The notes under the pieces were generated by a model that was not told the DNA's origin, did no database searches, and saw nothing but the letters and a program-made list of their open reading frames with translations. Shown piece after piece: positions 54,887 to 64,000 of a stretch of 64,000 bases of DNA. Source of the stretch: Siphonodentalium dalli (Eukaryota; Mollusca; Scaphopoda; Gadilida; Siphonodentaliidae); contig CP136062.1 of NCBI GenBank assembly GCA_032622095.1, forward strand, positions 194,873,887-194,937,886, written 5' to 3'. A program made the position numbers and the translations under genes. The first letter of the stretch is position 1; each line of letters begins with the position of its first letter.

Positions 54887-54984
54887 ACTTATGTCAGCTT
54901 CCGGTGGGCAAGACATGGTACCTCTATGTGTGGACTATTTTGCTAATGGATCCCCATTACTCACATGTTGGGTCAGAAAAGAGC

Positions 54985-55112
54985 ATAATTTACTAATACT
55001 TCAATTTTTTCTCGGATTCTAATGCCATTGTGTCCAGCGAAGGGCGTTCCCCTTCGCTGGACACACTGAACTTAGAATAATACCGAGCAAAAATCGAAGC
55101 ATTGGTAAATTG
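54985..55112. repeat. Strong hairpin at the left edge of the Polinton
   Basis: GTGTCCAGCGAAGGG is followed by a short loop and CCCTTCGCTGGACAC (about 55031-55066), a perfect GC-rich stem. Outside it, TTTACTAATACTTCAATTTT and TCGGATTCTAA pair loosely with the right side (TTAGAATAATACCGA, AATCGAAGCATTGGTAAA). Possible element boundary, promoter or replication structure; undecided. Confidence 0.65.
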
Positions 55113-55290
55113 TGCAACTTTACCAGTGCATTTTTAACAAAAGCGAAAGTCTTCGAATAAATAAAATAAATAAAATGTACTCGTAGAAGTTACCTTTCAG
55201 TGAAATATGATATGAGATAATGGTAAAATGGTACTTATAAAACTTCTCCGAGTCAAATCGGTGTTTTATTCGTAGAAATATGATGTTTTT

Positions 55291-55384
55291 GACAAAAAAA
55301 GAAAACACACTTGATTTAACGTTCGGGGGAAATTTGGTAAGATACACAATGACGTCGTCAGCGACGCCCGCGCATCTCACATAG
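55291..55384 (+). promoter_or_regulatory. Promoter-like module P1, copy 1
   Basis: About 90 bp shared with two other places: AAACACACTTGATTTAACGT, TCGGGGGAAATTTGGTAAGA, ACAATGACGTCGTCA and a CGACGCCCGCGCAT end. It stands 65 bp before the start codon of the following gene and includes a CRE-like TGACGTC core. Regulatory role is inferred from its repeated position directly upstream of three different genes. Confidence 0.65.
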
Positions 55385-55448: not shown

Positions 55449-55895
55449 ATGGATCCAGTAACGGAATTTCTCAAGACTATTGATGTGCAGTACGATCATG
55501 TTCCTGCAACGCAAATGTCGACTCCACTGTGTGCGGGAAATGTGACACCACGGGTAGAACAGCAACAGGTACCAACGGTGTATCCGCGAACGGATCAACA
55601 ACCAGTGTATATACCGCTGGTGAAAACACAACAAATGATTCAACCTGTTATATACCAAGTTATCAACAGTTCGCAATGGGAAGAACAGACAAAGTTGTTA
55701 CGGAATATTTGTCAGGAGATGAAGGACTTGCGAAAGCAGTTAACACACAGATCGGTTGAATGTACAATCAACTTGAAACCTGAGGCGATTGACATACCAA
55801 TTCAAGTACATGGTTTCCAGAAAGAACCAACGAAGCGATCAACATTTGGATCACGAGGGAAGGATTTAACAGTGATGAAGAAACAAAAGAAATGA
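55449..55895 (+). CDS. Polinton left-end protein, 148 aa, unknown function
   Basis: Uninterrupted frame from ATG (MDPVTEFLKTID) to TGA. The first half is rich in Q, P, V and T; residues about 75-100 (WEEQTKLLRNICQEMKDLRK) form a likely short coiled coil; the C-terminus is basic (KRSTFGSRGKDLTVMKKQKK), possibly a nuclear or nucleic-acid binding tail. No family is recognised. It is preceded by module P1 and followed, 18 bases after the stop, by a histone-type stem-loop, which argues that it is a real transcription unit. It could be a small structural or regulatory protein; I assign no function. Confidence 0.65.
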   Translation: MDPVTEFLKTIDVQYDHVPATQMSTPLCAGNVTPRVEQQQVPTVYPRTDQQPVYIPLVKTQQMIQPVIYQVINSSQWEEQTKLLRNICQEMKDLRKQLTHRSVECTINLKPEAIDIPIQVHGFQKEPTKRSTFGSRGKDLTVMKKQKK

Positions 55896-55913
55896 TTTTA
55901 TATTATTTTAAAC

Positions 55914-55955
55914 GGCCCTTTTCAGGGCCACTTAAAATTCACGAAAGATACGCTC
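55914..55955 (+). terminator. Histone-type 3'-end stem-loop plus downstream box, copy 1
   Basis: AAAC then GGCCCTTTTCAGGGCC (55914-55929), a 6-bp stem with loop TTTC, then ACT; 12 bases later the purine-rich ACGAAAGATACGCTCTG. Stem, loop, flanking A residues and spacing match the SLBP/U7-processed 3' end of replication-dependent histone mRNAs. No AATAAA lies between the stop and the stem-loop. Confidence 0.8.
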
Positions 55956-56889
55956 TGCAATATTATGCTACATGGTGATCGGATTATGAAGGGGCGGTAG
56001 TCGGGGGGGGGGGGGGGGGCGGAAAAAAACTGCGGGACACAACGTACCGGGGGTGGGGGTGTACATAGGCGTCAAAAATGTATACGTAATTTTTTTCCTT
56101 ATTCATTTAGGGGGGGGGGGGGTTGTCGGTAAAACAATTTGCATGTAATTGTTTTCCAAATATGTATTTTCAGACTCACAACTTCAATTTTCTCTCATTT
56201 TATAGAATATGGATTAACCTTAATATCCAAATCATATATACATGAGTAGTACAATCCACCTAAAACAATTTTGGATAACCACTCTGTTGGTTTACATGTG
56301 GTATTGACCCCATTAACCCTCTTAATAATGCCGACTATGTCAGTGTCTACCAGTCGAATGCAGAATTCTACCCTGCGATCGCTTATCTGGCAATGTTTTA
56401 CTGCAGAACTATCCCATGTATGCTGATGTATTAAACAATTTCTCCTCCAATGGTATCAGAAAACAGTTATATGCTGGTATCTCACTCATCTCATTTGCAT
56501 CTTTTTCAAAGTCGAGGTAATGACTAGTTGTCATTTTTTAAAGTGCATACAAAGCGTTGCGATCACCAATATACATGTTTGTACATGTCATGACATCACG
56601 AGGTACACATCTGCGTTCTACTCTGTTCTACTCTGCAGTTTTTGCTGTTTTTTTTGGGGGGGGGGGGGGGTACCCAAACTGAAGAAAACAGTTTTTTCCA
56701 CCCTGTGTCTGCAGTTTGTTCCCCCCCCCCCCTGCGGTAGTGGGTTTTTTTTAATTGTTAGGGAAGTATTCTTTGATAAATTATGTGAACATTCTCTCCA
56801 AGTTCAGGATGAATGAACGAGTATTTTTGAGAAATTATGTGAACATTATCTCCAAGTTCAGGAAGAATGAACAAATCGTACAATAGAAA
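55956..56889. other. Intergenic with G and C homopolymers
   Basis: Runs of G at about 56005-56019, 56112-56122 and 56656-56670, and of C near 56720-56731. The frame across 56520-56816 is interrupted by low-complexity sequence and has no domain. No gene recognised. Confidence 0.45.
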
Positions 56890-56890
56890 T

Positions 56891-56949
56891 GTTAGAGCGT
56901 ATCTGTCGAAAAATTTGTGAGGCCCTGAAAAGAAACAAAAGGGCCGTTT
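56891..56949 (-). terminator. Histone-type 3'-end, copy 3, with enlarged loop
   Basis: On the minus strand: AAAACGGCCC, TTTTGTTTCTTTTC, AGGGCC, then CAGATACGCTCTAAC after about 17 bases. It differs from the other two by nine extra loop bases that look like a TTTTGTTTC duplication. It lies just past the stop of the minus-strand gene. Confidence 0.65.
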
Positions 56950-56958
56950 TGAATGGTT

Positions 56959-57387
56959 TCAAAAGAAACCGCACTGTGTATTTGGGTTTGAATAAACCTG
57001 GAAGTTATCTTGGGAACATCGCAACCAAATGGCATAATTGCACGGCTGTCCTGTCTGTATTCCCCAGAGCGGCAATAATTCGTATACCCTGTGCCCTGAG
57101 AAGATCGTGATAGAACGCTGCAGTAAGGTAGCCTCGAGTCGAACCATCAGTATTGACGATCCCAGCAATCTGGTGTATCCGAACAACCATGGTGGTAATC
57201 CGAAAACCCGATATCTGTGATCTGTCATCAGCATAACGCTATATCTGTAGATATCGAAGAAGTTATCTACAGTACCCGTTGTCGCTAAGCTCAAAGACTT
57301 CCAGATCATCTGCACTTCATCCCCAAAGACACCTATTACCATCAACCCCTCCTCCAAATAACTCCGATACAGATCTCGGTAATCCAT
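56959..57387 (-). CDS. Polinton left-end gene on minus strand, possibly frameshifted
   Basis: A 142-codon frame begins MDYRDLYRSYLEEGLMVIGV and runs to 56959. From about 57190 a second frame (MVVRIHQIAGIV to AMFPR, ending 57005) looks at least as protein-like, so a single-base frame change near 57195 is likely and the true C-terminus is uncertain. No family recognised. It is read divergently from the 57643 gene out of a shared palindromic promoter region and is followed by the histone-type stem-loop copy 3. Function unknown. Confidence 0.5.
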   Translation of the reverse strand: MDYRDLYRSYLEEGLMVIGVFGDEVQMIWKSLSLATTGTVDNFFDIYRYSVMLMTDHRYRVFGLPPWLFGYTRLLGSSILMVRLEATLLQRSITIFSGHRVYELLPLWGIQTGQPCNYAIWLRCSQDNFQVYSNPNTQCGFF

Positions 57388-57433
57388 TTCGGTATGAATG
57401 AAGAATGGTGGATGTATGTTTAATTGTTTTATT

Positions 57434-57602
57434 GAAAACGCGCGGGCGCCGCTGACGACGTCATTGCGTATTTTACCAAATTTCCCCCGAACGTCAAATC
57501 AAGTGTGTTTCTTTTTGTCAAAAAGAAACACACTTGATTTGACGTTCGGGGGAAATTTGGTAAAATACGCAATGACGTCGTCACCGGCGTCCGCGCGTTT
57601 CA
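57434..57602. promoter_or_regulatory. Head-to-head P1 modules forming a 169-bp palindrome
   Basis: Two P1 modules face away from each other around a single-base centre at 57518, giving ~84-bp arms with only a few mismatches (AAGTGTGTTTCTTTTTG / CAAAAAGAAACACACTT at the centre, TGACGTCGTCA towards both outsides). The left arm points to the minus-strand gene starting at 57387, the right arm to the plus-strand gene starting at 57643. This arrangement suggests a bidirectional promoter; a replication-origin role is also possible. Confidence 0.75.
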
Positions 57603-57642
57603 TATAATATGGAGCGCAGTGTAGCGTTTTTTTATCTTCAAA

Positions 57643-57984
57643 ATGTTCTCTAAACTAAAAGAGAAAATTTTGCTAAAATTCTCTGCCGATGCTCGATTAA
57701 TAAAGCATTGGCAGAGGAATGTTAGAGATTCGGAGAGACACAAGTTAGAGATTAGAGCTGGAGTTCAAGAATTCCTGCAAAGACGGAGACCTTCTGCCAA
57801 GTTGTACGGGTCACATCCAGAATGGAAACCCACGTATAAGGGAGAATTATATCCAGATTTGTCTGGATATAATCCTCCAAGACCACTGCCAATGTGGATT
57901 ACCACTGAGGCAGTGGAATATGTGGGGGATCCATACTGGAGGCCCACACACAACAAGGGAGGACTTTATCCTGATTTGTCTTAA
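57643..57984 (+). CDS. Polinton left-end protein, 113 aa, with two LYPDL motifs
   Basis: Intact frame. Residues 1-50 are basic and likely helical (KLKEKILLKFSADARLIKHW). Residues 51-113 contain an imperfect duplication, HPEWKPTYKGELYPDLSGY and DPYWRPTHNKGGLYPDLS, each with LYPDL (residues 69-73 and 108-112). YPDL/LYPxL peptides are known docking sites for the ESCRT adaptor ALIX in retroviral Gag proteins, so a budding or trafficking role is conceivable but unproven. No family recognised. It is preceded by a P1 module and followed after 28 bases by a histone-type stem-loop. Confidence 0.7.
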   Translation: MFSKLKEKILLKFSADARLIKHWQRNVRDSERHKLEIRAGVQEFLQRRRPSAKLYGSHPEWKPTYKGELYPDLSGYNPPRPLPMWITTEAVEYVGDPYWRPTHNKGGLYPDLS

Positions 57985-58012
57985 TTTTTGTGACTCAGTA
58001 AAAAATTTAAAC

Positions 58013-58056
58013 GGCCCTTTTCAGGGCCACTCAAATTATTCGAAAGATACGCTCTG
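58013..58056 (+). terminator. Histone-type 3'-end stem-loop plus downstream box, copy 2
   Basis: AAAC, GGCCCTTTTCAGGGCC (58013-58028), AC, then TTCGAAAGATACGCTCTGAA after 10-12 bases. The stem-loop is identical to copy 1 and the downstream box nearly so, although the sequences around them differ. Confidence 0.8.
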
Positions 58057-58077
58057 AAATTGCTAAAAAAAACGTAA

Positions 58078-58109: not shown

Positions 58110-58686
58110 CATTTTTAACTTTCTTGGAAGATTCTCGCGATGCACGTCTTTTTCTCTTTCTGATAGGCAAAGTGTTTTTGCTTAATTTAAGTATCGTCAG
58201 CTCCTTTGGCTACAGCGTTTATCACTTCCATCTGCGAATCCTCCGTGTTTAGAATAGTGATTTCATCATTTGACGCCTCGTTGAGGCATTCACCACTCTC
58301 AGTTTTCACATCCGCGATCTCGTTAATTGATATCGCTGTTGAGTTGCATTGTTCCCCACTTTCAGCTTTCACATCCGCGATCTCGATAGTTGATGTCTCA
58401 GGTTGATCAATGTTCATTAAACTAGCATCATATGGTGTGAGATAATCGTTGTCTGATGTGTGCGTCCAAGTAGACTTCCCAGGAGTAGATTCACTCACCA
58501 TCAATGATGTTTTTTCATCTGATCAATCTTCTTTTTCGTAGTGCCATCACATTGTAAAGCCCAATATGAACTCGAATTGCACCTAAAACAGTTACCGTAA
58601 GGTGGTATCCACTTTGTATTCTTTACAACTTCTAATGCAATTTTTCGTAAATGTTGTATGTTGTTACTCTGCAATCGTGGATCCAT
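58110..58686 (-). CDS. Divergent partner gene of the DNA polymerase, two frames, unknown
   Basis: From ATG at 58686: MDPRLQSNNIQHLRKIALEV, then CFRCNSSSYWALQC (a C-x2-C..C cluster that could bind zinc) up to a stop at 58501. At the stop the sequence is GATGGTGAGTGA, which opens a second frame (VSESTPGKST) to 58187 and also looks like a splice donor. The second part is acidic with two copies of EIADVKxESGE (about residues 41-51 and 62-72). A third frame beyond it encodes a lysine/arginine stretch (RKRKRRASRESSKKVK) ending near 58110, so another indel is likely. No family recognised. It is driven from the shared palindrome at 58718-58836. Confidence 0.5.
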
Positions 58687-58717
58687 GGTGAGCGTTCGGT
58701 GCGTTATTCAGTCGTCA

Positions 58718-58836
58718 GTGAAATGACGACGTGATGAAAAATCGCGTTGCTTTTATGCTCTGACACGGACGATGACTGCGCATGTCCGTGTCAGAGCATA
58801 AAAGCGACACGATTTTTCATCACGTCGTCATTTCAC
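58718..58836. promoter_or_regulatory. Palindromic bidirectional promoter P2
   Basis: 53-bp arms (GTGAAATGACGACGTGATGA to GACACGGAC, and its complement) with two mismatches around a 13-base centre. Each arm has CATAAAAGC, a TATA-like box, about 33-63 bases before the ATG at 58838 (plus) and 58686 (minus). The arms also carry CGTCGTCATTTCAC, sharing CGTCGTCA with P1. Divergent replication-gene promoter by position. Confidence 0.75.
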
Positions 58837-58837
58837 G

Positions 58838-61235
58838 ATGAAACGCCTTGTGCCATCTTCAGATAGCGAAAGCGAACGAGATAATAGAACGAGAGTGCGA
58901 CTGGATGATGATTGTAAATATTATACCATAAAAAATCTAACCGATAAATACCCGAGGAAATTTAAAACAACATCAAAGAAATACAACGTCACATTTCAAG
59001 ATTTCATCAGCCATTTCAAACTGTTGACAGAATTTTCAAAGATCTGGTGAACAGTTTGAAGGATGAGGGTGACGCAGGACCAAAATATCAAATGAGAATT
59101 TCCATCTTTCATCCAGGGCTAGATCTAGGGATTCACTGAAGCAAAAGACCTGACGGGTGAATTATTGCTTGACAACATAGAAAAAGTTGCACAATCGAAC
59201 AAAAAATTCAAAATTCATGACGGACAGATGACATTTGATATCACTGTCAGGCACACGCCTGCAGGGACCACAAGACATACCTTACATTATGGAGCATTCG
59301 GTGAAAAAAATCAAATTAAAACAGTAAAGAAAAGTATTCTTCTGATTCAGAACGCAGAAGATAACATGTGTTTTGCGAGGGCTGTCGTTGTTGGCATGTG
59401 TAACGCTGACAAAAAAGATACCACTGAATGGAAGCAAGAATGGAAACGGATTACGAGATCAGCAAGAGCTCCACAACGGGAAGCTGCAAAGTCATTGTTG
59501 GATAAAGTGGGGATATCACACCAGGCCAACCGTACGCCAAGGCCAACCGTACCTTTAAATGGCGGTGAAGTTAAAATAAGCACACATTTTGTTGATGGTT
59601 ATCATGCAGAATCAAACACATGGTATGCAATGTATGGGTGTTTATTTCATCGCTGTCCTACTTGCTATCCAGATAGAAACCACCGAAACCCATACAGTAA
59701 TATAACAATGCATGAATTGTATGAAAAAACAATAAAAACGGAAACTGAAATCAAAAGCTTGGGATGCAAATTAATATGCATCTGGGAACATGACCTGGAC
59801 AATAAATGTAAAGAAGACAAAATTTTTAAACAAACTATGGACCAATTATATTTGCATCAAGACCCAATTAAACCAATGGAAGCAGTATTTTGGTGGCAGA
59901 ACTAATGCTCTAAAATTATATCATGAAATAGAACCAAAATCTAAACAGGAAATAAAATATATTGATATATGCAGTTTGTATCCTAGTGTGAATAAATATA
60001 GGGAGTACCCTCTTGGCCATCCTACAATTTTAAGTCAGGAACAAATAGGAGACATAAAATCTTACAAAGGACTCATTAAATGCTAAGTATTACCTCCAAA
60101 TAAATTGTACATTCCAGTGCTACCGATCCACTGTAATAACAAAATGATATATACATTGTGTAAAACTTGTGCAGAAAATGGGAAGTGTAGTCATAAAACT
60201 GAACAGCGTGCTTTAGGTGGAGTTTGGACGCATGTAGAATATTCAAAGCAATAGAATTGGGCTACCAAATTCTGGAAGTGTATCAAGTTTGGCATTGGAC
60301 TGAGTGGTCGGACAAAGTATACAGATATTACATTGATAAATACCTCAAAATTAAACAAGAAGCAAGTGGATATCCAAATTCTGTTAAAAGTGAAGAAGAT
60401 AAAGATAAATACATTAAAGATTATTATGAGGTTGAAGGTATAAAACTTGAAAAGAAAAAATCGAGAAAAAACCAGGACTCCGCCAGTGCGCAAAATTATT
60501 GATAAATTTCATATGGGGAAAAAATGCACAAAATAATATTCTTAATAAAACGAAATATATCTCAGAACCATCCAGATATTTTGAACTACTAACTGATAAA
60601 AATATCACCGTCAAAGCAATTGAAAATTTTCAGCATGATAAATTCATATTATTCAATTATGAAAATAAAACCGACATTATAGAACCACATCCATCTGCCA
60701 ATGTAGTTCTTGCATCATTCGTCACAGCATATGCTTGGAGTTGTAAAAAGTTTTAGAAAAACTCCAAGATTGGGTGCTATATTTCGACACCGATAGCTAT
60801 ATGTATATTTTCGATCCAGAAAAAGAAAATATCAAAACCGAAGACAGCTACCTTGGTAAATGGACTGATGAACATCCGGATGCTAAAATCATAAAATTTG
60901 TAGGGTTTGGACCACAAAATTATGGATATCAGCACGTGAACGATGGTGTCATAAAATATGTATGTAAGGTCAAGGGTATCACTCTGGATTAAAAAACTAA
61001 ACAGCAAGTAAATTTTCATTCAATGGTTGAATGTGTTAACGACCGGTCAAACTTTCAACGTGTCATAAACTACCCATGCAGAATTAAATGCACAAAGAAC
61101 CGAGAAGTAATTAGTGAAGAGAAAACAAAAACATTCCGATCTGTGTACACCAAACGACTTGTGGGTGAATACAACACAATTCCTTATGGATGGAATTGTT
61201 GTTTTACCAGCAGAGATGCTTTTGAAAATTTATAA
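58838..61235 (+). pseudogene. PolB: Polinton/Maverick family B DNA polymerase (protein-primed type), broken
   Basis: Start ATG at 58838 just inside the P2 palindrome. Recognisable parts in order: N-terminal domain to 59520 (KDLTGELLLDNIEKVAQSN, DNMCFARAVVVGMCNADKKD), then abruptly LNGGEVKI, VDGYHAES, GCLFHRCPTCYPDRN and LICIWEHD (59560-59790); polymerase motif A DICSLYPS at 59970; thumb-like YIDKYLKIKQEASGYP at 60331; motif B region NFIWGK at 60503; motif C YFDTDS at 60780; and the C-terminus NYPCRIKCTKN..VYTKRLVG to 61235. The total span is about 720 codons instead of the usual 1000 or more: the 3'-5' exonuclease region expected between 59520 and 59560 is absent. Stops or frame changes lie near 59048, 59905, 60084, 60240, 60500, 60755 and 60990. 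The enzyme replicates Polinton DNA in intact elements; this copy is dead. Confidence 0.92.
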
Positions 61236-61760
61236 TAACTTGATCAAAATGTCAAAAATGGATCAAGAAATCAAACGAGAACTTAAACAAACTTGGTTTT
61301 TGAGGGAAAGTAAAATTATAGTGCAGACATTGCTGAACGGACATTTCTCTGAGGGGCAGAGTCGATTAAAATGTTTGATTGAGAGATCAGAATTAGAAAC
61401 TGATTTCTTAATGGATATATTGGATCAACTGTTTTCAGATTATTGAATATTTCATGATGTTCCTAAAAACAAAATAAACGAAATTCGTGAATTAGTTGAA
61501 TATCAAGACAGGATCTCAATGAAAAAACTTTGAAATTCGAAGAGGTGACGAGAATATATGGATACATTATTCTCCGAGAACCATGTGCAATTTTCACTGC
61601 TGAAAAGTTATTTGAAGAAAATGTGTCTTTGGATTATATTGTAAAAACCACTAGACCTATTTCAGACTTAGATAATGAACTCATTTGGACATTTGGAATA
61701 ATCTGGAGTTATGGTGATTCTTCATTAAAATTAAAAAAGGTTGATTCCGAACAATCCTAA
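61186..61760 (+). pseudogene. Polinton protein of unknown function, overlapping PolB end
   Basis: An ATG at 61186, overlapping the last ~50 bases of the polymerase in another frame, opens MDGIVVLPAEMLLKIYNNLI, 86 codons to 61446. The reading continues, after a stop and a frame change near 61500, as 61530-61760 (EVTRIYGYIILREPCAIFTA to KKVDSEQS). LPAEMLLKIYNNL is F-box-like, a weak resemblance only. Mostly helical and charged. No family assigned. Confidence 0.45.
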
Positions 61761-61774
61761 TCAGTCTTACATGA

Positions 61775-62445
61775 TATGTCTCAGGGTAAAGATAGACGAA
61801 ACATTGTTGTTCAAACATCCCTGTAACATTTTCATATCGGGACCAAGTGGTTGTGTTAAAAACAGAATTTGTTAACAAATTAATCGAATATAAAGATGAC
61901 TTGTTCAAACCTGTTCCATACAAAGTCGTTTGGTGTTACAAAGAATGGCAAAATACCTGTATAGTCAGATGCAAGAATTTAACAATATTCAATTTATAAA
62001 TGGAATACCGGATGATGACAATGAACTTGTCGATGACACAGACTTACCGTACCTCATCGTTTTTTATGATATGTTAGGTGATAAAGATGAAGAAAAAATT
62101 ATGTTGTGGTTTACAAGAAAAGGACATCCCAGAAATACATCTGTTATTTACATAACCCAAATCATGTTTCAGAAATCTAAAGCAAGTAGAACTTTGAATT
62201 TGAATGCACATTACATGGTACTATTTCAAAGTGTGCATGATAAATGTCAAATAAAAATTCTTGCCTCTCAAATGCAAATACCTCATATAATGCAAGCATA
62301 TGATGATGCAACTTCAACCAATCATGGTTATTTACTACTCGATTTTCACCCAAAAACGGTTAAATCGTTGGGACTTAGAACTGATATTTTCCATCGCTGG
62401 CTCACAACTGACGACCGAGCTGCGGTAATATATTCATCGGTATAA
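61775..62445 (+). pseudogene. Packaging ATPase (FtsK/HerA, A32-like), broken
   Basis: FKHPCNIFISGPSGC at 61811-61855 is the strand and P-loop (Walker A) of the genome-packaging ATPase of Polintons and adintoviruses, but the loop is disrupted immediately after by a frame change. The main frame restarts at 61930 with QEFNNIQFINGIPD, DLPYLIVFYDML (Walker B region, in which one of the usual acidic pair is a tyrosine), a sensor-like NTSVIYITQIMFQ, LNAHYMVLFQSVHDKCQIKI and a C-terminal YLLLDFHP segment. It normally pumps DNA into capsids; both nucleotide-binding motifs are damaged here. Neighbours fit the family order (polymerase, ATPase). Confidence 0.82.
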
Positions 62446-62482
62446 AGATAAGTGTATCAACATAATATTTTCATTTCCAATC

Positions 62483-62878
62483 ATGGAGTCGCATGAAGCA
62501 GTCTTGAGTGTATTTTCGACTATAGCTAAATTAATACTTGATGATCACTTAAAGCTTCCAACGCAGACACGAACATTTCTGCAAAAACACAAAAAAGAGC
62601 TGTAGAAAATAGCTGACATTAGAACTCATATCGATTCAAAAAAGATAACACTTTTCAAAACTGGTGGAGGTGGATTTATCGGTGGAGTTTTGATCAGAAG
62701 TCTTCTCAGACAAAAAGAAAATAAATCAATTGCACGAGCTAGATCAAATAGAGTAAATGCTACTAGAGTAAATTCTACAATTGCACAGCGAACTAGTCCA
62801 GTTAGAGTAAATTCTACAATTGCACAGCGAGCTACTCCAGCTAGAGTAAATTCTACTGGATTAAATTCTCAACTATAA
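62483..62878 (+). pseudogene. Basic, glycine-containing core-like protein with RVNST repeats
   Basis: One frame from ATG at 62483 with a single stop at 62603. Part one: MESHEAVLSVFSTIAKLILD and LPTQTRTFLQKHKKEL. Part two: hydrophobic GGGGFIGGVLIRSLL, then an arginine-rich tail in which RVNSTIAQR or RVNST occurs four times (residues about 95-130). Small basic proteins with a glycine/hydrophobic patch are common among virion core proteins of Polintons and adenovirus-like agents, so that role is a reasonable guess. The stop makes the copy doubtful. Confidence 0.5.
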
Positions 62879-63105
62879 TGGTCCGCAACCAATTCCATCA
62901 GTTCAAGAAGCAGAACATTACCCGTTGGTTCAACGATACTCAAAACTTATGAACCTTTCAAAACCATCAAAATTAGCTTTGATGACATTTGATCGTAATT
63001 TTAATAAACGTAGAAGTAAAAGTAATTCAGTCAGTTAACATTCAACTGTTGATGAGTAAAGATGGCGAAAAAAACTCCACTGATTTAAATATATGGTAGT
63101 TTTGT
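62879..63105. other. Short spacer, remains of coding sequence possible
   Basis: A reading with LKTYEPFKTIKISFDDI lies at about 62935-62990 in another frame, probably an extension of the previous gene. Nothing else recognised. Confidence 0.3.
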
Positions 63106-64000
63106 AATGGCTATGAATCAGGCACCAACTCATTTTCGAAAAACAATAATAAAAGATGCCCCAAAGAAAGTGATTGCATGTCAGAATGCTGTAAAAAATA
63201 TCTTAAAAGGCAATGTAAAACTAACAGAAGCTCAGAATCGCATTACCACATAATCCTGAAATTACAAATGTTTCAAAACTAAGCAGAGAATTGAATTCAG
63301 TTTCTGATCAAAATTTGTCAGAATCCGAGAAGGTTCAATTATATGGTACAACTTTGCGCAAATTGAAAACTTCTCAAAAATCAGTTAGGGCTATTTCAAC
63401 CCTGAAAACAGAACAACCGTTTAATCATCATAGGGATGTGATAGAAAGTATTCCGTTAAAGATGAGAAAAAAAGCTGAACAACTTTTACTACTGATTTCA
63501 AAACATCCGCAAATGAAGATTGATGAACATGGACAATTAACATATGGTGAAAAAGTTATTAGAGGATCAAATATTGTTGATCTCCTCAATGATATTGTAC
63601 GACAAAGAAAAGGTTTCGAACCAATAGGTTGGGAAACCTTTAGGATTGAGCGAACCTCAAGAGTTTGTAGGGAACAGAAACCGTGGGCTTTGGATTAAAA
63701 AACATTTGACAGATGATTCAGATGATGATTTTGAAGCTCCGGTACAAAGCATAAAACGAAAACGATTTGATTCTCATCGATTCACACCAATGAAAGGTAT
63801 AAAAGCAAGACATTCAAAAACTAAAATAGCAGATAGGTTGACACCAACGGGTATTAAAACAAAAAACACAATGGGATCCATACTAGATGAACAGTTATCT
63901 AAAATGTTCTATAATCCAAAGAAAGTTGGAAGTTATGGCGGTGTAAAGAAGCTTTTTGCTGAAGCGAAAAGGCAAAATACAAAAATAAAACTCATAGATG
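63106..64000 (+). pseudogene. Polinton conserved protein leading into integrase N-terminus, runs off the window
   Basis: Begins MAMNQAPTHFRKTIIKDAPK at 63106; a frame change near 63240 leads to the frame ending at 63698 with IPLKMRKKAEQLLLLISKHP, KIDEHGQLTYGEKVIRGSNI and VDLLNDIVRQRKGFEPIGWE, a block found in Polinton-like elements of many invertebrates. Another frame change near 63660 opens a frame continuing to the window's end: an acidic/basic linker, then EQLSKMFYNPKKVGSYGGV and KKLFAEAKRQNTKIKLID, which resembles the segment just before the catalytic core of retroviral-type integrases in Polintons. The catalytic core itself would be beyond 64000. Confidence 0.65.

Follow-up and report, generated by a model that had tools for sequence, protein, structure and literature searches.

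Histone-type 3′ ends behind non-histone genes of a Polinton suggest use of host histone RNA processing

A 3′ end of the stem-loop/U7 type is regarded in animals as the signature of replication-dependent histone genes. Histones are also encoded by giant viruses and bracoviruses. Adomaviruses and tailtomaviruses possess 'histoid' histone-like genes, called remote homologues on the basis of HHpred and structure; the term 'stem-loop' is absent from the main text of that paper (PMC11071296). A survey of Polinton-like virus and virophage genomes listed six matches to the Rfam histone 3′UTR stem-loop, none of them in the cryptophyte set; the count stands within a list of ncRNAs, in a section that does not say where the matches lie, which genes they belong to, or whether they have a downstream box or a function (PMC12220804). 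Among the literature matches listed (titles, abstract openings and passages), we found no description of histone-type 3′ ends or histone H4 in Polintons.

The DNA analyzed here, called the window, was a stretch of 64,000 nucleotides from Siphonodentalium dalli. It contained a decayed copy of a Polinton of 14,950 bp, measured from terminal repeat to terminal repeat. The left terminal inverted repeat occupied positions 54975..55234 (blastn of the window against L060, inverted, 92% over 271 nt; the ends were set by the exact shared start), and its partner ended at L060:5924, about 5.9 kb past the window. A piece of the DNA polymerase B gene lay in the core block (59775..60086, + strand; PF03175 match at 59775–60083, 38 bits with a cut-off of 25.8); with the terminal inverted repeats, this family B polymerase represents the Polinton class traits found in the element. 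ORF pieces resembling integrase, packaging ATPase and capsid were recognized by eye, with no Pfam match above the cut-off on the pieces given, and no target-site duplication was seen by eye in the flanks.

The left part of the element encoded short genes, of which A, B and C matched no histone family in Pfam or PHROGs. Gene A (55449..55895, +) encoded 148 aa with the N-terminus MDPVTEFL and a basic C-terminus; no Pfam family above the cut-off and no convincing PHROGs match were found for it. It was preceded by a promoter-type upstream repeat (55297..55383, +; repeats D4, 87%, and I3, 92%) that recurs ahead of gene B and, in inverted orientation, ahead of gene C. Gene C (56959..57387, −, 142 aa) and gene B (57643..57984, +, 113 aa, with two YPDL motifs) were divergent and separated by a near-perfect inverted repeat (57429..57607; repeat I2, 94% complementary), which from its sequence is a probable bidirectional promoter common to both. 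The model of a related gene C (pLDDT 51) weakly predicted an OTU-like fold: Foldseek ranks 1–9 were all OTU-type, with a best E-value of 0.036 and none ≤0.001. Gene F, in two ORF pieces (58187..58686, −), was convergent with gene B, lacked its own stem-loop and had an AATAAA 80 nt past its stop; this signal was present in both Polinton families.

Behind genes A and B, the 16-mer GGCCCTTTTCAGGGCC occurred with 0 mismatches on the plus strand, as a preliminary description of this DNA had reported: at 55914..55929 (flanks AAAC and AC) and at 58013..58028, respectively. These histone-type 3′ stem-loops began 18 nt (gene A) and 28 nt (gene B) after the stop codons, in agreement with the 18–28 bases given there, and in both genes a GAAAGA-type, HDE-like box, CGAAAGATACGCTCTG, started after the proposed 12 bases (55942..55957 and 58041..58056, both +). 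ATTGCT followed the box of gene B (58059..58064, +); the same hexamer came after the box in 5/9 representative Polinton cassettes and in those host histone 3′ ends that were inspected. The claimed histone-mRNA-type anatomy was recognized by the Rfam family RF00032 (Histone3) at the gene B site (58008–58053, 35.1 bits, above the gathering threshold of 34); the gene A site scored slightly below this threshold (55909–55954, 33.8 bits). The diverged third copy placed behind the minus-strand gene at 56.9 kb was likewise present, as a cassette behind gene C (56889..56950, −; match with 3 mismatches at 56921–56936, −). An insertion splits its arms, so we regard it as a damaged copy; the stem-loop of gene C was unbroken in other Polinton copies (L002, L003). 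In total, the window contained three matches at ≤3 mismatches, a number reached in 0/100 shuffles (mean 0.15, maximum 2). MiRNA-type Rfam matches at 57463–57572 and 58714–58838 lay on large palindromes, were under the gathering threshold and were dismissed.

The exact 18-mer GGCCCTTTTCAGGGCCAC was present in 1985 copies in the host genome, with 0 for the reversed control; these counts and the shuffles of the window rule out a chance hairpin. We inspected 30 of the 1985 loci, the first in order on chromosome C1, which formed 14 clusters. In all 30 the stem-loop was on the sense strand, 18–22 nt (coordinate differences of 19–23) past the stop of a Polinton gene A, B or C. Host histone genes were thus ruled out as owners of these sites (0/30), as they were for the window genes. 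The family-I cassette, i.e., the stem-loop with AAAGATACGCTCTG, numbered 206 genome-wide with a near-constant box distance, and family-II (A/B-type) cassettes numbered 606, the control being 0 in each case. RF00032 yielded 14 Polinton matches of 30.8–42.6 bits over the loci searched, 10 of them above the gathering threshold. The cassette was found behind genes of five clear types (A, B, C, D and H4) in two Polinton families, and a further stem-loop, site E near the right end, stood behind a broken gene without a clear purine box. Related Polintons within this genome thus keep the stem-loop, the lack of which had been named in advance as counting against the proposal. A death-domain-like ORF of family II (L097) had no stem-loop within the 65 nt available past its stop, so the cassette need not end every accessory gene. 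The core block (about 10.5 kb of one decayed element) contained no stem-loop at ≤4 mismatches in 58840–64000 or in L060:1–5300. In the IMG/VR viral collection, GGCYCTTTTCAGRGCCAC gave 0 matches; a looser pattern gave two contigs, phage-like by eye, with the hairpin between genes in one and inside an ORF in the other. A capsid-like piece gave eight pattern matches in IMG/VR, none confirmed, and an ATPase-like piece gave none. These searches recovered no relative from the collection.

The proteins A, B and C of families I and II were only about 28–32% identical (32% over 74 aa for gene A and 28% over 112 aa for gene B), while the cassette was common to both families. In an alignment of 3′ ends chosen as representatives (nine Polinton and four host), the stem-loop and the preceding AAC were invariant apart from a single base pair in which both partners had changed; the AC after the stem-loop was kept in 11/13 ends, and the box accompanied the loop in all but E. 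AAAACGGTCCTTTTCAGGRCC occurred at 332 sites, and 88 of the 100 heading the list had the compensated pair, with one single mutant counted; this pair represents a single inherited change, and 31/500 shuffles reach it. Within family I, variability per site was only slightly lower in the stem-loop (0.026) than in the coding (0.042) and downstream (0.051) sequences, and since inserted copies decay, conservation within a family is ill suited to testing for selection. Altered stem-loops in 11/38 gene B copies are as expected of decaying copies. In 7/38 gene B copies, gene-C-like downstream sequence directly followed the box, as judged by eye.

Family-II Polintons were found to carry histone H4: this applied to all nine off-array H4 genes fetched (eight loci), eight other off-array H4 genes not being among those fetched. 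The claim that the encoded proteins are not histones therefore stands for genes A, B and C of the window and fails for some related family-II elements. The Polinton H4 genes ended in the same stem-loop cassette, and their products were 89–97% identical to canonical H4. Compared with host H4 (five Polinton versus two host genes), dN was 0.045–0.084 and dS 1.5–2.9, which points to strong constraint at the sequence level. Four Polinton H4 copies compared among themselves had dS of 0 and dN of 0.013–0.043, a pattern that recent decay would produce.

The host histone genes examined possessed the same stem-loop, the same 5′ flank and a similar box at about the same distance as the Polinton cassettes. 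Four host matches to RF00032 (two loci) scored 40.3–42.7 bits, and in one host H4 gene the gap between stop and loop was 36 nt. The RNA-binding domain of host SLBP was represented by two nearby PF15247 matches on C2, both over the cut-off (60.6 and 31.4 bits) and probably corresponding to exons. We failed to find U7 snRNA in the host genome with RF00066 (541,557 candidates, 65 scored); 0/14 control genomes gave a signal, which makes this genome-wide search uninformative. Two sequence patterns for U7 gave nothing convincing, the first having more control than true matches, and among 12 + 7 fetched candidate sites none was convincing (best 18.7 bits, E-value 0.5, cut-off 34).

The anatomy of the cassettes, their likeness to host cassettes, their recurrence in two families and the presence of the host SLBP domain support the reading as histone-type 3′ ends. 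Since Polinton and host histone genes have the same hairpin and downstream signal, we consider it likely, judging from sequence, that the short accessory genes of the Polinton use the host replication-dependent histone 3′-end system (SLBP/U7). The genes concerned would be those near the Polinton ends: A, B and C, joined in family II by D and, in a subset of copies, by a captured H4. SLBP would bind their transcripts at the stem-loop, and the purine-rich box would position the U7 snRNP for a cut a few bases downstream of the loop, leaving transcripts that lack a poly(A) tail and terminate at the stem-loop. The products would be intronless mRNAs with short UTRs, presumably tied to the host S phase. 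A histone 3′ end may originally have been captured and then spread between genes through 3′-end swapping.

The same capture could have left a passive relic: a histone gene taken up with its 3′ end, whose 3′ segment was copied to positions behind other genes and has since been inherited without function. Polinton-borne H4 genes exist, 3′ ends swap between genes, and young copies (family-II genes 90.7–100% identical to the reference, many >99%) would have the cassette by descent. We nevertheless regard a functionless relic as quite unlikely, because the 16-mer and its 5′ flank have been kept across families with such divergent proteins, and because the compensated pair, the uniform sense orientation and the near-constant family-I box distance suit function better. 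Polyadenylation signals also bear on this question: AATAAA/ATTAAA was absent within 300 nt past the loop in 6/9 Polinton cassettes, window gene A among them. This absence, like the box that accompanies the loop in every representative except E, speaks equally against a stem-loop that serves mRNA stability, export, translation or another protein while the 3′ ends arise from ordinary cleavage and polyadenylation downstream. In the other three cassettes the signal lay 71–76 nt (window gene B), 152 nt (gene D) and 292 nt (an H4 Polinton) past the loop, so read-through polyadenylation is possible, and one of two host histone ends also had it, at 130 nt; we give this explanation little probability.

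A palindrome acting at the DNA level, as a recombination site, protein-binding site or terminator, with a secondary likeness to the histone hairpin, would agree with the palindromic stem and with the 3′-end exchange adjoining it. However, the asymmetric loop and flanks follow gene direction in 30/30 loci, the top Rfam scores of Polinton sites are as high as those of host histones, the core block has no stem-loop and a host-like box follows the stem-loop; a DNA-level role is therefore highly improbable.

Returning to histone-type processing, the core genes (the PolB block) and gene F have no cassette, and gene F has an AATAAA, so that a single element would comprise two 3′-end classes. A broader scheme might follow, which we are slightly more inclined to doubt than to accept: an end-near host-interaction module (A, B, D, the OTU-like C and, where present, H4) would depend on SLBP/U7 and be on with host DNA replication, while the core would use ordinary poly(A). 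The choice of 3′ end would then be a timing switch, and the stem-loop with its box a portable terminator spreading between genes and enabling histone capture.

Several hundred cassettes in one genome are of the types found behind virus-like non-histone genes, and they form a natural set in which to test the parts of the cassette that matter. If they are functional, a mobile DNA element has hijacked histone mRNA processing, which would tie its accessory genes to the S phase, avoid polyadenylation and suggest how such elements time expression. In addition, Polintons are shown to carry histone H4, apparently under strong constraint.

The cassettes resemble the metazoan replication-dependent histone 3′ end (RF00032) in the 6-bp stem, UUUC loop, A-rich 5′ flank and AC 3′ flank, as well as in the loop near the stop codon, the purine-rich box about 12–13 nt further on and the short single-ORF genes. 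Unlike metazoan histone genes, A–D encode non-histones and sit in a mobile virus-like element. The element itself is like a Polinton/Maverick (adintovirus-like) in its length of 14.95 kb, terminal inverted repeats and PF03175 DNA polymerase B, and it differs from the Polintons/Mavericks described in the literature matches listed in its histone-type 3′ ends and, in related family-II copies, the histone H4 gene. In encoding histone-like proteins, these Polintons resemble several eukaryotic DNA viruses, namely adomaviruses and tailtomaviruses, giant viruses and bracoviruses. The Polinton H4 remains 89–97% identical to canonical H4, whereas the histoid is described as a remote homologue (PMC11071296).

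The window element, 14,950 bp in length and bounded by inverted repeats at window 54975–55234 and in the adjoining locus L060, is a decayed Polinton. Its polymerase gene was fragmented into ORF pieces, and a DNA_pol_B_2 piece was detected by profile search at 59775–60083 (38 bits); integrase-, ATPase- and capsid-like ORFs were assigned from by-eye likeness only. A search with the gene B region scored 40 matches among 646 candidates, with 87–94% identity, the window itself aside. Two near-perfect large palindromes between divergent genes (57429–57607 and 58718–58836) are probably bidirectional promoters; sub-threshold Rfam miRNA matches arise from them.

The stem-loop 16-mer GGCCCTTTTCAGGGCC was found on the forward strand at 55914 and 58013, 18 nt past the stop codon of gene A (55449–55895, +) and 28 nt past that of gene B (57643–57984, +), respectively. 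Both copies had the flanks AAAC (5') and AC (3'), and the purine-rich, HDE-like box CGAAAGATACGCTCTG began 12 bases 3' of each, as the preliminary description had stated. The window contained three matches to the 16-mer at up to 3 mismatches (100 shuffles: mean 0.15, maximum 2). The proposed histone-type character was borne out by Rfam Histone3 (RF00032, gathering score 34), which recognized both sites (35.1 bits and, marginally under gathering, 33.8 bits). A diverged third copy had been reported behind the minus-strand gene C (56959–57387); a copy is present there, but it is split by an insertion, and its counterparts in other copies (L002, L003) have an intact stem-loop.

The host genome contained GGCCCTTTTCAGGGCCAC at 956 + 1029 sites (1985, any host histone genes included) and its reversed control at none. 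Thirty loci, the first in order on C1 and falling into 14 clusters, were assigned to reference genes by blastn, family I denoting the window-type Polintons and family II a second, diverged Polinton family: 10 were II_A, 10 II_C, 8 II_B and 2 I_A, and none was a histone. Related Polintons of this genome, where the stem-loop was to be sought, do carry it: in 30/30 C1 loci it lay on the sense strand behind a Polinton gene, 18–22 nt past the stop. The sites examined involve two Polinton families, whose proteins share 32% (A), 28% (B) and 29% (C) identity over the aligned parts. Family-I cassettes (stem-loop plus AAAGATACGCTCTG) numbered 206 genome-wide, a class taking in sites without AC 3' of the loop, and family-II A/B-type cassettes 606; controls gave 0 in both cases. 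Gene-C-like downstream sequence, recognized by eye, stood right behind the box in 7 of 38 aligned gene-B copies (L066, L068, L069, L072, L074, L076 and L083), which suggests that 3' ends are exchanged between genes beside the common cassette.

The core block of the window element (window 58840–64000 and L060:1–5300, about 10.5 kb) contained no stem-loop at up to 4 mismatches; one with a single mismatch adjoined the right terminal repeat (L060:5492). Gene F (58187–58686, −), convergent with gene B, had AATAAA 80 nt past its stop codon in family I and 31 nt in family II. AATAAA/ATTAAA was absent from the 300 nt downstream in 6/9 Polinton cassettes, and window gene B had two such signals 71–76 nt after the loop. 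One element would thus have two 3'-end classes, genes with the cassette and genes lacking it, gene F being the cassette-free gene examined for AATAAA.

Host histone arrays were large: 150 H4 matches were scored among 178 candidates, the majority in arrays on contigs C5, C8 and C9. The host histone genes, to which the preliminary description had also referred for comparison, showed the same arrangement in 20 loci (19 of them in the C5 array and one on C8): CGGCCCTTTTCAGGGCCACC, then a box (AAAGAGATAC, AAAAAGATAAAC or AAAGAGTTACTCT) at a distance equal to that in Polintons, then ATTGCT. Polinton boxes were GAAAGATACGCTCTG, AAAAGGTTACTCTTTC, GAAAAGAAAAACTC or AAAGATAGCTCTTT, with exact ATTGCT following in 5/9 representative cassettes. 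L039 and L047 are host histone loci with ATTGCT 3' of the downstream element, and the box of the L039 H4 gene can itself fold into a hairpin. Histone3 scores were 40.3–42.7 bits in the host (4 matches, 2 loci) and 30.8–42.6 bits in Polintons (14 matches, 10 above gathering). When 13 representatives of these 3' ends, chosen mostly from exact matches, were aligned, 78/78 pair cells were standard; five of the six stem pairs were invariant and one, in the family-II gene D, was changed on both sides. Since this pair alone has a two-sided change, the covariation, reached by 31/500 shuffles, is a single event. The compensated partner was present at 88 of the first 100 listed among 332 AAAACGGTCCTTTTCAGGRCC sites. 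Gene D has two stem-loops in tandem (L061:6290–6370, −), the second with the compensated pair and alone followed by a box. The host SLBP domain gave two matches above the cut-off; searches of the host genome with RF00066 and two sequence patterns identified no U7 snRNA.

Nine off-array H4 genes were fetched at 8 loci (L062:1179–1667; L063:1862–2350, −; L095–L100); beyond this set, the H4 search listed another eight matches or fragments off the arrays. All nine lay within family-II sequence, with the family-II upstream region in front and the cassette at the end. Polinton H4 (n = 5) and host H4 (n = 2) shared 89–97% amino-acid identity, with dN of 0.045–0.084 and dS of 1.5–2.9. Of seven aligned Polinton copies, six have in common an additional residue preceding KVFLE as well as QIR in place of QGR (QIRTLYGFGG), and the L099 copy has neither; the Polinton genes therefore appear to form a separate lineage. 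They may represent either the route by which histone 3' ends were captured or the uptake of a histone gene by a cassette-bearing Polinton.

Gene C (window 56959–57387, −; L011:1538–2005, −) may encode an OTU-like protein of deubiquitinase fold: Foldseek ranks 1–9 were OTU-type domains (best E 0.036) for a low-confidence model (pLDDT 51). YPDL, an ALIX-binding late-domain motif of retroviral Gag, occurred near the C-terminus of gene B in both families (window 57643–57984; L061:7177–7527). A family-II accessory ORF (L097:66–560, −) showed death-domain likeness (PF00531, E 0.025, 15.1 bits, under the cut-off of 22.6).

The anatomy of the cassette, its recurrence, its likeness to host 3' ends, its confinement to a subset of genes and the host SLBP domain are established. 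From this sequence evidence, it is quite probable that the Polinton genes use the histone processing pathway. Host SLBP would bind the Polinton stem-loop, cleavage would be U7-guided, the mRNAs would carry no poly(A), and expression timing would follow S phase. Among the titles and abstract openings listed from open PubMed Central, none described Polintons with histone-type 3' ends, and the 'histone' passages seen in PMC8363768 and PMC12721341 were without relevance here. The nearest report, as far as its accessible text goes, is a Polinton-like-virus survey counting six histone stem-loops, listed without analysis (PMC12220804); adomaviruses and tailtomaviruses are described as having histone-like 'Histoid' genes (PMC11071296).
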